From the NCBI GenBank assembly GCA_035574235.1, contig DATLZA010000115.1:1-53864 (forward strand): a stretch of DNA of 53,864 nt, written 5' to 3'. The notes below the pieces were generated by a model. The model did not search any database and was not told the origin of the DNA. It saw only the letters and a program-made list of their open reading frames with translations. This DNA comes from Planctomycetota bacterium (GTDB taxonomy: Bacteria > Planctomycetota > MHYJ01 > JACPRB01). Each line of letters starts with the position of its first letter. Positions within the stretch are counted from its first letter, which is position 1. Both the position numbers and the translations under genes were made by a program. Below, one piece after another: positions 26,753 to 48,144 of this stretch.

Positions 26753-27529
26753 TCACGCCTCCCCGTCGGCGCGCCGGACGGCCAGGAACGCCAGGCACAG
26801 CGCGAACACGACGACCGCCGCGCCCACCATCCCGGCCGGCGTGGGCAACGCGGGAAGGTCCGCCCCGTAACGGAGCGTCAGAACGAGAACCGCGGCGTTG
26901 TTGATCGCGTGGGCCACGATGCCGGCCCACAGGCTCCCGGTGAGCCGGACGACGGTTCCGAAGTAAAGGCCCAAGAGCAGCATGGGCGGGACCTGCACGA
27001 GCTTCCAATGGGCGGCGGCGAAGGCGGCCGCCGTGAGCGCGACCGCGCGGACCGCCCCGAACCGGACCGTCAGGCCGCGCAGGAGGATCCCGCGAAAAAG
27101 CGTCTCCTCGCTCAGCGGCGAGGCCGCCACGAAAAGCGCCGCGGCGTACACGGTCCCGCGCGCGCCGGCGCGTTCCACGCCGTGCTCGATCCGCCGGCGT
27201 TCGACCTCCACGCGCTCGCCCAGACCCAGCGCCCGGAACGCCTCCTCCTGAAGGTCCACCAGCCCCTTGAGAATCCACAGAAGCGCCAGCGACGCCAGGA
27301 CCACCGCGGCCAGGCGGACCGGATCGATCCGGCGGAAGCCGTTGTCCGCCCAGGGGCGCAGGCCGGTCGCGCGGGCGTAGATCAGGGGAATCGCGAAGAA
27401 CGCCGCCTGCTGGACCGCCGTGGCCAGATCGGCGGAAAGCCCCGCCCCCGCCAGAAGGGCCGCCAGCGCCATCGCCAGCAACCCCAGAGCCAGGACGCGC
27501 GCCGCGTCGACGGCGTCGGGCCGCGCCAT
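26753..27529 (-). CDS. CPBP family intramembrane glutamic protease
   Basis: 258 residues with about seven membrane helices. The family motifs are in place: EExxxR as Glu141-Glu142-x3-Arg146 in 'PLSEETLFRGILLRG', His174 in 'AAAHWKL' and the final 'GIVAHAINNAAV'. CPBP (Rce1/CAAX-like, Abi) proteases cleave peptides inside the membrane. In bacteria, roles include bacteriocin immunity and maturation of secreted peptides or envelope signals. The ATG abuts the stop of the coiled-coil lipoprotein gene without a gap. Together with the kinase before that it forms a three-gene unit. Its substrate is unknown, but the co-transcribed lipoprotein is an obvious candidate to test. Confidence 0.88.
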   Translation of the reverse strand: MARPDAVDAARVLALGLLAMALAALLAGAGLSADLATAVQQAAFFAIPLIYARATGLRPWADNGFRRIDPVRLAAVVLASLALLWILKGLVDLQEEAFRALGLGERVEVERRRIEHGVERAGARGTVYAAALFVAASPLSEETLFRGILLRGLTVRFGAVRAVALTAAAFAAAHWKLVQVPPMLLLGLYFGTVVRLTGSLWAGIVAHAINNAAVLVLTLRYGADLPALPTPAGMVGAAVVVFALCLAFLAVRRADGEA

Positions 27530-44070: not shown

Positions 44071-44790
44071 ATGAGCTGCCTCACGGTCGTCGCCGCCTGG
44101 GTTTCGCTCCTGGCGCCTCCTTCGCCCCAGGTGCGCCCCTTGCCGGTCGAAGAAATGGCGCGGGAGGCCGCCGTCGCGGGAGTGGCCACGGTTCAGAGCT
44201 CGCGCAGCCGGCACGATCCTCGAACCGGATTCATCTACACGGATCATTCCCTCAGATTCGAGGAGATCTGGAAAGGGTCCCCCGGGAGCCCTTTCCTCCT
44301 GACCCAGGCGGGCGGACAGGTGGGCGACCTGCGCGCCGCCGTCGCCGGCCATCATTTCACCTTCCGGCCCGGCGAGAGGATCGTCATCTTCGCCACGCTC
44401 TCCCACTTGGGCCATTACACGCTGATCGGAATCCGGCAGGGCCTGTACCGAATCGAAGAGGAAAAACCCAATCCCCGCGTGCGCCGGGACACGGAAGCCC
44501 GGAGCTCCATGACGCTGGCCGAGCTGCGCGAGGCGGTGGCCCGGGCGCTCGGGAAGCCTCTCCACAACGCTCCGGAACCGGCCGCCTCGATGTCCCCGCG
44601 CCCTTCGGGACCGCCGGCTCCGCCCGCTCCCGAAACCGCGCCCGCCTCCCCGGCCCCCGCGGCGGAACCCCGGACTCCCCCATCCTCATCGGCCTCAAAC
44701 TCCTGGACGACCGCGCTCGCGGCCGCGGCCGTCCTTCTGGCGGCGGGGGCCGCCCTCGTCCTGGGATTCCGAAAACGGAGCACAAAATAG
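44071..44790 (+). CDS. Exported protein with C-terminal membrane anchor, unknown function
   Basis: 239 residues from ATG 44071. A signal sequence ('LTVVAAWVSLLAPPSPQ') leads to a compact beta domain of about 120 residues ('FIYTDHSLRFEEIWKGSPGS', 'AAVAGHHFTFRPGERIVIFA', 'HYTLIGIRQGLYRIEEE'), then a long Pro/Ala/Ser linker (175-208) and a single membrane helix with a basic end ('LAAAAVLLAAGAALVLGFRK'). This is a surface-displayed domain on a stalk. The beta domain has no recognised family. It comes 33 bp before a metalloprotease gene in the same direction, so the two may act on the same side of the envelope and be co-transcribed. Confidence 0.65.
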   Translation: MSCLTVVAAWVSLLAPPSPQVRPLPVEEMAREAAVAGVATVQSSRSRHDPRTGFIYTDHSLRFEEIWKGSPGSPFLLTQAGGQVGDLRAAVAGHHFTFRPGERIVIFATLSHLGHYTLIGIRQGLYRIEEEKPNPRVRRDTEARSSMTLAELREAVARALGKPLHNAPEPAASMSPRPSGPPAPPAPETAPASPAPAAEPRTPPSSSASNSWTTALAAAAVLLAAGAALVLGFRKRSTK

Positions 44791-44823: not shown

Positions 44824-47800
44824 ATGCGAGGGCGATACGGAGCGGGACGATCCATCCTTCGATGGGTCTGGATTGCGGCCCTGGGTCTGGGGCCTTGGGC
44901 GCTCCCTTCCGCCACTTCGGCTTACCTTGAGATCATCCAAGGATCGAGCCTGGTGCGTTGGAAGACGGGTTCGCCCTCGACCCTCTGGAACGACACCGCC
45001 CAGACCTTGAGCTGGTCCTTCAACAGCATCAATTTTCCCCAATCGAACTGGCCTTCGATCGAACAGACCGGCGCCGCTCTCCAGAGCGCCTTTCAAAGCT
45101 ACGAGGACGTGACGGGGTCTTCCATCCGCTTCAACCGGCTTCCGAACACGTCCGGAACCCCCGCCTCCAACGACGGGAAACTCGAGATCGCCTTCGCGCC
45201 GAACTCGTTGAGCGACTACTACGGGAACAACATCAGCGGAGCTTATGCGGTCACCTACATGTTGTGGAATATCAGCGGCGCCATGCTGGATGCCGACATC
45301 GTCTTCAACGGCGACCCCTCGGATTTCACCTGGTCCACGGCCGATCTTGCCGTTTCGACCACGACGGCCGACGTGGAAGTCACGATGCTTCACGAAGGCC
45401 TCCACGCCGTGGGCGGCGGCCACCCCGTCTACTTCTTCGCCGCCGTCTGGCCGACCGGCCGGTTCCCCGAACGGCCTCTGAACGACCGCTGCCTCTCCCC
45501 GGACGACCGCATTCTCCTGAGACTCCTCTATCCGGGATCCCCGGCTCTCGGCACGATCAACGGTCAGGTGAATTTCTCGGGGAGCGGGGGAGGGGTCGAC
45601 CGCGCCATCGTCGTGGCCACGGATGCGAACGGGGTTCCACAGGCCACCCGGGTCACGGACTCCTCCGGCGCCTACTCGATCCAGGTTCCCGCGGGAACCT
45701 ATTCCCTGACCGCCCACCATCATCGGAACAGCATGTACGGCCCGTCGGATATCGACTTCAGCGGAGCCTCGAACTTCACGACCGCGACGACGGTCAGCGG
45801 GGTCAACGTCACTTCCGGGGGAACCTCCACGGCGGCCACGATCGTCGCGACTTCCGGAACGCCGGTCATGGAGCTCACGGGGATCACGACCCTGCCGAAC
45901 CCTCTTGAAAGCCAGGTTCAGTTCCTCTCCCCTGGATTCTCCGGGACGCTCCGGGTCCGCATTACGGGCGTCGCGCTGGCCACGAGCGATATCTCCTCGG
46001 TCGACCTGGGCCCTGGAATCACCGTCGCCGCGGTCAGCACCTCCACATCGGGAACCACGACCTTCCTCAATATCACCATCGCCGTCGCCTCCAACGCGTT
46101 CCCCGGACCCCGCACGCTTTCCATCACGCGCACGAACGGGGAGCGCGCGCTCTGGCCGGCGGCGGTCATGGTGCTCGAGGCGGGAACGCTGTCGCTCTCG
46201 GCGGGCCCCGACAACCCGGGCGCGGTTTCCGCCGCGCCGGGATCGACCGATGTGCCGCTTCTCCAGGTGCAGCTCCAGGCCGGAGCCGCCGAAGACGTGC
46301 GCCTCCGCCGCCTCCAGTTCACGATCACCGGCTCCGGACCTGCGCTCCCGGACGTCCGCCTGTGGAAGGTCGAATCCACCAACGTCCGCGTCTTCAGCGG
46401 AGCCGCCTACGCCAATAACCCCGTCTCGGAGACGAAACCGGCGACCCCGGCCGCCACCGTGGTCTTCGACCACGTGGCCTTGACCGCCCCGGCCGGCGGA
46501 ACCCTGACGCTGCTTCTGACGGCGAATATGCCTTCGTCGGGCACCGGAAGCTATTCGGCCTCCCTGGCGGCCTCGGACATCACCGCCCACGGCATGTTTT
46601 ACGGTGACGTGATCACCGTGACCGGAGGACCCGTGGCGGGCGGGCCCGTCGCCCTTGGGGCCATCGCCGTCTCGGGCCTGGGCCAGTTCCGCACGACCGC
46701 CGGAACCGCGATTCCCGTAGGAGGCTATACCCCGGAAACGCAGGTGACGATCCGGGGCACCGTCACCGCGCAAAGCGGAACCGTCGGACTTGAAGTCGAA
46801 GTCAAGCCCCTGGGATCGAGCTTCACCGGAACCGGGACGGTGTCCAGCACGGTCACGTTCCCCAGCGGAACCGAAATCAGCGTCGACGTCACCGGTCTTT
46901 CGAACCTCACGGCGTATCATTGGAGAGCCCGGGCCCTGAGCAGCACCTTGTCCCCCTCCGCGTGGGTCAGCTTCGGCGGAAACGCCGAGAGCGAACGGGA
47001 TTTCTCGGTCGACACGGGAACCACCGCCCCCCCGACCGCGCTCGGTCAGTCGGAACCCGACGGCTCTCCGTCGATCCCCGTGGGCGGAACCGCCCGCGGA
47101 GGAATCCGGCTCTCGGCGACGAACGGCGCCAATTCCGACGGCCAGCAGGTCCGCCTGGAGATCGAAGTCCGCCCCGCGGGCGCGCCCTTCACGAACACGC
47201 CGACCCTCGTCAGCCCGTTCGTTCCCGGCGGCACGGCCGGGTCGGAGACCTTCTCGGGTCCCTTAGGGGACTATCATTGGCAGGCCCGCACCGTGGCCTT
47301 CTTCGGGTCCGAGTCCTCCTGGGTGGCTTTTGACCCGGCGCCCGTCCATTTCCGTCTGGAGCCGGTCGAATCCATCGAGGCCTCGGGCGGATGCGCCGGA
47401 AGCGCGGCCGCGCAATCCGGCTCCTTCGGCGCCGCCGTCGCGTTCCTTCTGGCGGCGGTCCTCGGGAGGACGGCGTTCCGGCGCCGCCGCCGCTCGGGCG
47501 CCGTGTTCGCGCTCCTCCTGGCCCTTCCGTCCGCCGCCTCCGCGGCCGACCCGCCCGACCTGCCGCGGTCGCTCTCCGAACCGGAACCTCCGACGGTCCG
47601 CGCCGGGCCCGACGCCCCCTGGGGCTCCTTCGCGCTCTACCTGGGCGCCGCGTTCCGGGATACGGAATTCCAGGCCACCGGAACGGACTCCATCGAGCGC
47701 GAAGTAGACGGCCTGGGCGCGGCGACGCTCGGCCTGGAGGCGCTGGTCAACCTTCACGAAGACTGGCGGATCGGCCTGGCGGCGGAAGCGGGATGGGGCG

Positions 47801-48144
47801 GAGACCTGAGGTTCGCCGGCGCCGGCCCCGCCGTCACCTGGACCTTCGCGCGTTCCCAGCCGAGGAAGTCCGGCGGCGCCTCCGACTTCGAACACCTTCT
47901 GAAACTCGGCGTCCTCTTTCAGACGCTCGAGGTGGATAAGAGCGACTTCGGCGACTTCAAACCCGCCTTCGAGGCGCGCGCGGGTTATGAACTGCGGATC
48001 CTGATGACCTCCGGATGGTGGGCGACCCTCGGACTCGAAGCCCGGTACGCCGTCTGGGACTACGACGAATCGATTCTGACCGGCGACGACGAACTGGGCG
48101 GCTTCGGCGTGTTCATCTCCGCGGGCGTCGCCTTCACCCCTTGA
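44824..48144 (+). CDS. Matrixin-type metalloprotease fused through a sorting signal and a signal peptide to an outer-membrane beta-barrel
   Basis: 1106 residues with a strong GGGAGGG site. In order: signal peptide (1-32); zinc protease domain with HExxHxxGxxH at His190-His200 ('MLHEGLHAVGGGHPVY'); a carboxypeptidase-regulatory-like domain (about 240-300, 'GTINGQVNFSGSGGGVDRAI'); sandwich and fibronectin-like domains to about 850; a Gly-Gly-Cys motif (Cys857), a hydrophobic helix and RRRRR (887-891), which together look like a MYXO-CTERM-style sorting signal; then 'GAVFALLLALPSAASA', a second signal peptide; and a beta-rich domain (908-1106) ending in Phe-Thr-Pro that looks like a small outer-membrane barrel ('WGSFALYLGAAFRDTEFQ', 'FEARAGYELRILMTSGW'). 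The two halves look like two former genes now in one frame. An internal GTG at 47503 has no ribosome site. Confidence 0.75.
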   Translation: MRGRYGAGRSILRWVWIAALGLGPWALPSATSAYLEIIQGSSLVRWKTGSPSTLWNDTAQTLSWSFNSINFPQSNWPSIEQTGAALQSAFQSYEDVTGSSIRFNRLPNTSGTPASNDGKLEIAFAPNSLSDYYGNNISGAYAVTYMLWNISGAMLDADIVFNGDPSDFTWSTADLAVSTTTADVEVTMLHEGLHAVGGGHPVYFFAAVWPTGRFPERPLNDRCLSPDDRILLRLLYPGSPALGTINGQVNFSGSGGGVDRAIVVATDANGVPQATRVTDSSGAYSIQVPAGTYSLTAHHHRNSMYGPSDIDFSGASNFTTATTVSGVNVTSGGTSTAATIVATSGTPVMELTGITTLPNPLESQVQFLSPGFSGTLRVRITGVALATSDISSVDLGPGITVAAVSTSTSGTTTFLNITIAVASNAFPGPRTLSITRTNGERALWPAAVMVLEAGTLSLSAGPDNPGAVSAAPGSTDVPLLQVQLQAGAAEDVRLRRLQFTITGSGPALPDVRLWKVESTNVRVFSGAAYANNPVSETKPATPAATVVFDHVALTAPAGGTLTLLLTANMPSSGTGSYSASLAASDITAHGMFYGDVITVTGGPVAGGPVALGAIAVSGLGQFRTTAGTAIPVGGYTPETQVTIRGTVTAQSGTVGLEVEVKPLGSSFTGTGTVSSTVTFPSGTEISVDVTGLSNLTAYHWRARALSSTLSPSAWVSFGGNAESERDFSVDTGTTAPPTALGQSEPDGSPSIPVGGTARGGIRLSATNGANSDGQQVRLEIEVRPAGAPFTNTPTLVSPFVPGGTAGSETFSGPLGDYHWQARTVAFFGSESSWVAFDPAPVHFRLEPVESIEASGGCAGSAAAQSGSFGAAVAFLLAAVLGRTAFRRRRRSGAVFALLLALPSAASAADPPDLPRSLSEPEPPTVRAGPDAPWGSFALYLGAAFRDTEFQATGTDSIEREVDGLGAATLGLEALVNLHEDWRIGLAAEAGWGGDLRFAGAGPAVTWTFARSQPRKSGGASDFEHLLKLGVLFQTLEVDKSDFGDFKPAFEARAGYELRILMTSGWWATLGLEARYAVWDYDESILTGDDELGGFGVFISAGVAFTP

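Follow-up and report, generated by a model that had tools for sequence, protein, structure and literature searches.

A metalloprotease with a MYXO-CTERM-like tail and a predicted outer-membrane barrel share one reading frame in a planctomycete

A single unbroken reading frame of 1,106 amino acids (positions 44824 to 48144, plus strand) in a planctomycete genome encodes a protease, a sorting tail, a second signal peptide, and a beta-barrel, in the order that the initial annotation had described. The window in which it lies is the whole stretch of DNA analyzed, 53,864 nucleotides. We think it probable that the frame is a natural fusion of two neighboring envelope genes, one for a MYXO-CTERM-like surface metalloprotease and one for an outer-membrane barrel, the product of which would be cut in two. 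Judged from sequence, the joint is more than chance, because the domain beyond the second signal peptide has homologues among free-standing secreted proteins and because the tail sits where 13 homologous FN3-repeat proteins carry theirs, at the C terminus.

The fused gene starts at an ATG with a strong Shine-Dalgarno signal (-12.3 kcal/mol) and a first signal peptide, MRGRYGAGRSILRWVWIAALGLGPWALPSATSA (44824 to 44922). A matrixin-like zinc metalloprotease domain follows (44923 to 45537), in which the motif HExxHxxGxxH is present as HEGLHAVGGGH at 45391 to 45423 (residues 190 to 200). The domain scored 19.6 bits against Pfam PF00413, for which the cut-off is 24; the orthologous protease of Planctomycetota bacterium nzgw515 (G001), a member of a related genus, scored 25.7 bits, above that cut-off, and the two proteins are homologous over 564 columns (blastp E value of 2.6e-24). 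Sequence comparison of the protease with the PDB gave no useful match, and a scan of named genomes for the protease gave no match. Next come a carboxypeptidase-regulatory-like domain (45553 to 45720; PF13620, 25.3 bits, below the cut-off of 32.3) and FN3-like repeats (46639 to 47346), which also occur in a family of giant repeat proteins. GC3 is even along the frame, at about 0.7 to 0.9. The full-length AF2 model had a pLDDT of 45.9 and a pTM of 0.34 and was confident only in the barrel and some of the repeats. Upstream, gene A (44071 to 44790, plus strand) is an open reading frame of its own, with a signal peptide, a conserved domain, a TM helix, and RKRSTK before its stop.

The sorting tail spans 47377 to 47493 and has the tripartite MYXO-CTERM layout of Cys motif, TM helix, and Arg cluster: GGC at 47386 to 47394 (Cys857 at 47392 to 47394), a helix at 47419 to 47478 (about residues 866 to 885), and RRRRR at 47479 to 47493 (Arg886 to Arg890). 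Its best NCBIfam match was MYXO-CTERM TIGR03901, at 17.6 bits and below the cut-off of 20; against a family tail model it gave an E value of 1.9e-5, with the window tail itself among the 12 rows of that model. The initial annotation had read a Gly-Gly-Cys sorting signal here. A C-terminal-type sorting tail it is, with a Cys motif that is MYXO-CTERM-like and not of the GlyGly-CTERM kind. A rhombosortase-like system, for which it had suggested a search, is rejected, since the best score against TIGR03902 was 34.3 bits for a cut-off of 84 and the tail itself matches MYXO-CTERM best.

Tails of this type are widespread in the retrieved loci, to which our surveys of tails and joints apply. Across five genomes of the family, that of the window among them, about 23 Cys-TM-Arg tails stop within about 16 residues past the Arg cluster, and in the same five-genome count the frame continues past the Arg tail only in the window and in contig C436 of G001. 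The 13 FN3-repeat homologues in the class have the same kind of tail followed by a stop, so that in the window the tail is at its expected place and what follows it is additional. Several tails in the genome of the window share the signature DHEEGLxDGRCxCGS-TM-RRR-stop at a true C terminus. Although the MYXO-CTERM motif has been termed myxobacteria specific (PMC11980579), the tail on contig C60 of this planctomycete genome passes the cut-offs of both MYXO-CTERM models, TIGR03901 (26.7 bits) and TIGR03382. MYXO-CTERM-like tails are extended to the Planctomycetota by these cases. At least six proteins of this planctomycete (loci L095 [on C60], L096, L097, L098, L100, and L116) end in a family tag that resembles MYXO-CTERM, (D/E)HxEG(L/F)xDxxCxCG(S/T)-TM-RR(R).

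Directly after Arg890 the frame runs into a second signal peptide, SGAVFALLLALPSAASA (47494 to 47544), with predicted cleavage after Ala907. No other 15-residue segment of the open reading frame is as hydrophobic as those of the tail helix and this signal peptide (2.19 and 1.99). The initial annotation had called the signal peptide classical; it does end in SAASA, but it is short (14 amino acids) if counted from GTG 47503, the sole candidate internal start in the joint. The domain that follows (residues 908 to 1106, nucleotides 47545 to 48141, with a core at 47623 to 48141) is about 190 residues long and has free-standing secreted homologues with blastp E values of about 1e-5 and below. Two of these, with signal peptides of their own, are encoded in the same genome (L009, 29% identity) and in G001 (L041). 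An AF2 model of the domain, built from three sequences, had a pLDDT of 72.4 and long strands. Foldseek matched it to OprG, OmpW, OmpA, and NspA (E values of 2e-5 to 2e-4), and all of its 12 best PDB structure matches (E value of ≤0.001) were outer-membrane barrels. On the strength of this model, the C-terminal domain very probably belongs to the 8-stranded outer-membrane barrels. A scan of named genomes for the barrel returned the G001 record as its sole match.

One could suppose that the joint arose recently by accident and left one half, probably the barrel, nonfunctional. The genus of the window is represented by one genome, and identity between the barrel and its homologues is about 30%. 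The frame is nevertheless intact across the barrel, the predicted fold is the expected one, and an aromatic residue stands near the C terminus; we regard a degenerate fusion as extremely unlikely.

A split counterpart, of the kind that the initial annotation had suggested looking for, is found in the same genome. On contig C84, an FN3-repeat paralogue (45% identity to the window over the FN3 region) ends in GYCSAST...LLRRR-TGA, that is, in Cys, TM helix, RRR, and stop, and 7 nucleotides past the TGA an ATG opens a separate protein of 185 amino acids that has a signal peptide and ends in Phe. Homology between this barrel-like protein and the window barrel was not detectable (E value of about 0.9), so that the order of genes is the same and the gene itself not demonstrably so. 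The bases of the window that match the stop and start of C84 read RRRRR-TCG-GGCGCC-GTG, with a TCG Ser codon (47494 to 47496) at the place equivalent to the TGA. The simplest history is that two genes lying close together lost the stop that separated them, either in the organism itself or, with lower probability, through the assembly.

The correspondence between RRR-TGA-7 nt-ATG and RRRRR-TCG-6 nt-GTG also feeds another explanation, namely, that there are still two genes, that the stop at codon 47494 was missed because of a strain variant or a wrong base in the assembly, and that translational coupling normally starts the barrel at GTG 47503. The other tails, about 23 of them, end in a stop, and since TCG at 47494 is one substitution from TAG, we keep some weight on a wrong base there or on a stop lost very recently. 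This explanation requires an error at one exact codon, however; no stop codon was seen near the joint in the other frames when the window sequence was read, and C436 of G001 is equally fused and has no usable start codon. We consider it unlikely. A chimeric contig is likewise disfavored, given that C84 and C436 show the same gene order.

Contig C436 (L154, 1 to 5574, plus strand) carries an open reading frame of 1,857 amino acids that is open at the 5' end; its FN3/PKD repeats are homologous to the window protein (37% identity). These repeats lead into a HCSSGAAAAGTNPILPAALGALLLAGAWVARRRR tail that scored 20.3 bits against MYXO-CTERM TIGR03901, above the cut-off. The joint runs HCSS..RRRR, then the signal peptide GPKILACLLVLSGASGTVFA, then QEP.., and the barrel after it scored 33.1 bits against PF13372 Alginate_exp (AlgE type; cut-off, 25.2) and ends in VYSF. 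The joint contains zero ATG, GTG, or TTG codons, and an ordinary internal start therefore cannot supply the signal peptide of this barrel. The G001 assembly is a draft MAG, another contig of which has a stated coverage of 2.7, and the G001 barrel open reading frame is identical in L114 (JAHFOZ010000002.1).

A third joint lies on contig C192 of G001 (L103, 3 to 4007, minus strand), where a homologue of gene A is fused in frame to the orthologous protease. A TM helix, WRRRAARK, and a further hydrophobic stretch connect the two, and here too the joint has no start codon. This joint alone matched a model named midcut-by-XrtH-like protein, weakly (12.6 bits for a cut-off of 45), and that candidate, for which we found no paper, was set aside. 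C192 and C436 break off within the same repeat type, and G001 may contain one giant open reading frame of gene A, protease, repeats, and AlgE-type barrel. An exact overlap between the two contig ends was not found, however, so the triple fusion is conjecture. A motif survey of 818 kb, biased to the loci retrieved, matched the window and C436 alone apart from polytopic membrane proteins, and it missed the C192 joint.

Because a related genus has the same kind of joint, the two-in-one precursor looks, as far as these reading frames tell, like a recurrent arrangement rather than a one-off error. The earlier suggestion of a self-splitting polyprotein or a gene fusion, with the Arg run shared by both signals, is supported by the split pair on C84 and by this second fused case. 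We put forward only tentatively the broader proposal that consecutive secreted proteins fused at joints of tail helix, Arg cluster, and signal peptide form a recurrent class of envelope polyproteins in the family, in which each Arg cluster does double duty and signal peptidase, together with an intramembrane protease of sortase-like function, releases the products in a fixed ratio.

An alternative hypothesis is that the fused frame is real and that the barrel comes chiefly from internal initiation at GTG 47503, a start that the initial annotation had suggested looking for, with the long form as a by-product. That GTG immediately precedes the hydrophobic stretch, and in L009 and L041, the free homologues, the signal peptides are likewise short and N-terminal positive residues few or absent. 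Its anti-Shine-Dalgarno energy, however, is -2.5 kcal/mol, against a background median of -3.2, the free barrels reach -9.3 and -11.6, and the two G001 joints have no equivalent start. Initiation at this codon is thus left without Shine-Dalgarno support, and we judge this hypothesis quite unlikely.

Under the fusion that we favor, the precursor would enter the Sec translocon through its first signal peptide, and the protease and FN3 part would be exported. The tail helix would then act as a stop-transfer segment, with RRRRR staying in the cytosol, and the same Arg run would serve as the n-region of the second signal peptide and restart export, making the joint a membrane hairpin. Cleavage by signal peptidase I behind SAASA would release the barrel, which BAM would then insert; such a cut is expected because an outer-membrane barrel could hardly stay on an inner-membrane hairpin. 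A CPBP/myxosortase-like protease would perhaps cut at Cys857 and turn the protease part into a lipid-anchored surface protein, by analogy with MrtX and TraA (PMC11980579). Both cleavages, the lipidation, and the final locations are steps that we infer.

Alternatively, the mature protein could stay uncut, with the barrel as an anchor for the protease, in the manner of autotransporters or of adhesins fused to OmpA. The order of passenger and then barrel within one open reading frame would suit such a protein, but the chain would need to span both membranes, and a hairpin with RRRRR and a signal-peptidase-type site lies between the halves. This hairpin and the unfused arrangement on C84 disfavor the autotransporter reading, and we hold an uncut protein to be very unlikely.

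The genome has three CPBP genes, and none of the three proteins exceeded the cut-off of the myxosortase models MrtX (NF040593) or Mrt_core (NF040914). A CPBP intramembrane protease is encoded in the window itself (26753 to 27529, minus strand; PF02517, 72 bits; NF041647, 89.5 bits, far under the cut-off) and is a candidate tail processor without a direct link to the fused gene. A GspD-like secretin of type II secretion scored 336.9 bits for a cut-off of 351.35 in the same genome and exceeded the cut-off in relatives.

A precedent for an internal signal peptide at which signal peptidase splits a precursor is FbcH of Bradyrhizobium, the cytochrome b/c1 precursor. FbcH resembles the present case as a bacterial precursor split at a membrane joint; it differs in that its products are inner-membrane respiratory proteins, with neither a sorting tail nor an outer-membrane barrel. 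In a Haloferax ArtA substrate, to go by the title of reference 46 in PMC11980579, a tripartite sorting signal is internal rather than C terminal, but the system is an archaeosortase one.

The closest likeness is MXAN_5598 of Myxococcus xanthus, in which Guo, Haft and Wall described a MYXO-CTERM that lies within the protein, with an outer-membrane barrel and OmpA domains after it (PMC11980579). They suggested a gene fusion, with the N-terminal part proposed to be processed, and compared it with the overlapping traA/traB genes (PMC11980579). Compared by this published description, the two proteins share a surface part, an internal Cys-TM-Arg tag, and an in-frame outer-membrane barrel (PMC11980579); MXAN_5598 differs in coming from another phylum, in being an adhesin and not a metalloprotease, and in having an OmpA domain. 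The initial annotation, which knew of no standard family with this order, was nearly right: given the published example, the window case is a variant and not a new category. TraA/TraB of Myxococcus is similar in arrangement, a MYXO-CTERM surface protein beside its partner in overlapping genes whose combined architecture resembles MXAN_5598 (PMC11980579), but it consists of two open reading frames and two proteins.

Outside the Myxococcota, then, there are two independent cases, and a third joint of like logic, in which a mid-protein sorting signal is joined to a second signal peptide, accompanied by the unfused arrangement in the same genome. If our reading is true, some surface proteins would be made as precursors that give a surface enzyme and a barrel in a fixed ratio, and the second protein would be missed by gene callers and by signal-peptide predictors, which inspect the N terminus only. 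In relatives, the gene after a tail gene mostly lacks a signal peptide, and the pairing of tail and barrel is therefore not general. At two loci (L117, on C30 of the window's genome, and L122, on C8 of G001), the tail gene and the gene after it share 4 bases at the latter's likely start codon, and the next gene at L117 has a signal peptide. Open reading frames of about 2,000 to 3,000 amino acids with FN3-like repeats and Cys-TM-basic tails were also seen in several genera of the class (L174, L175, L179, L181, and L186).
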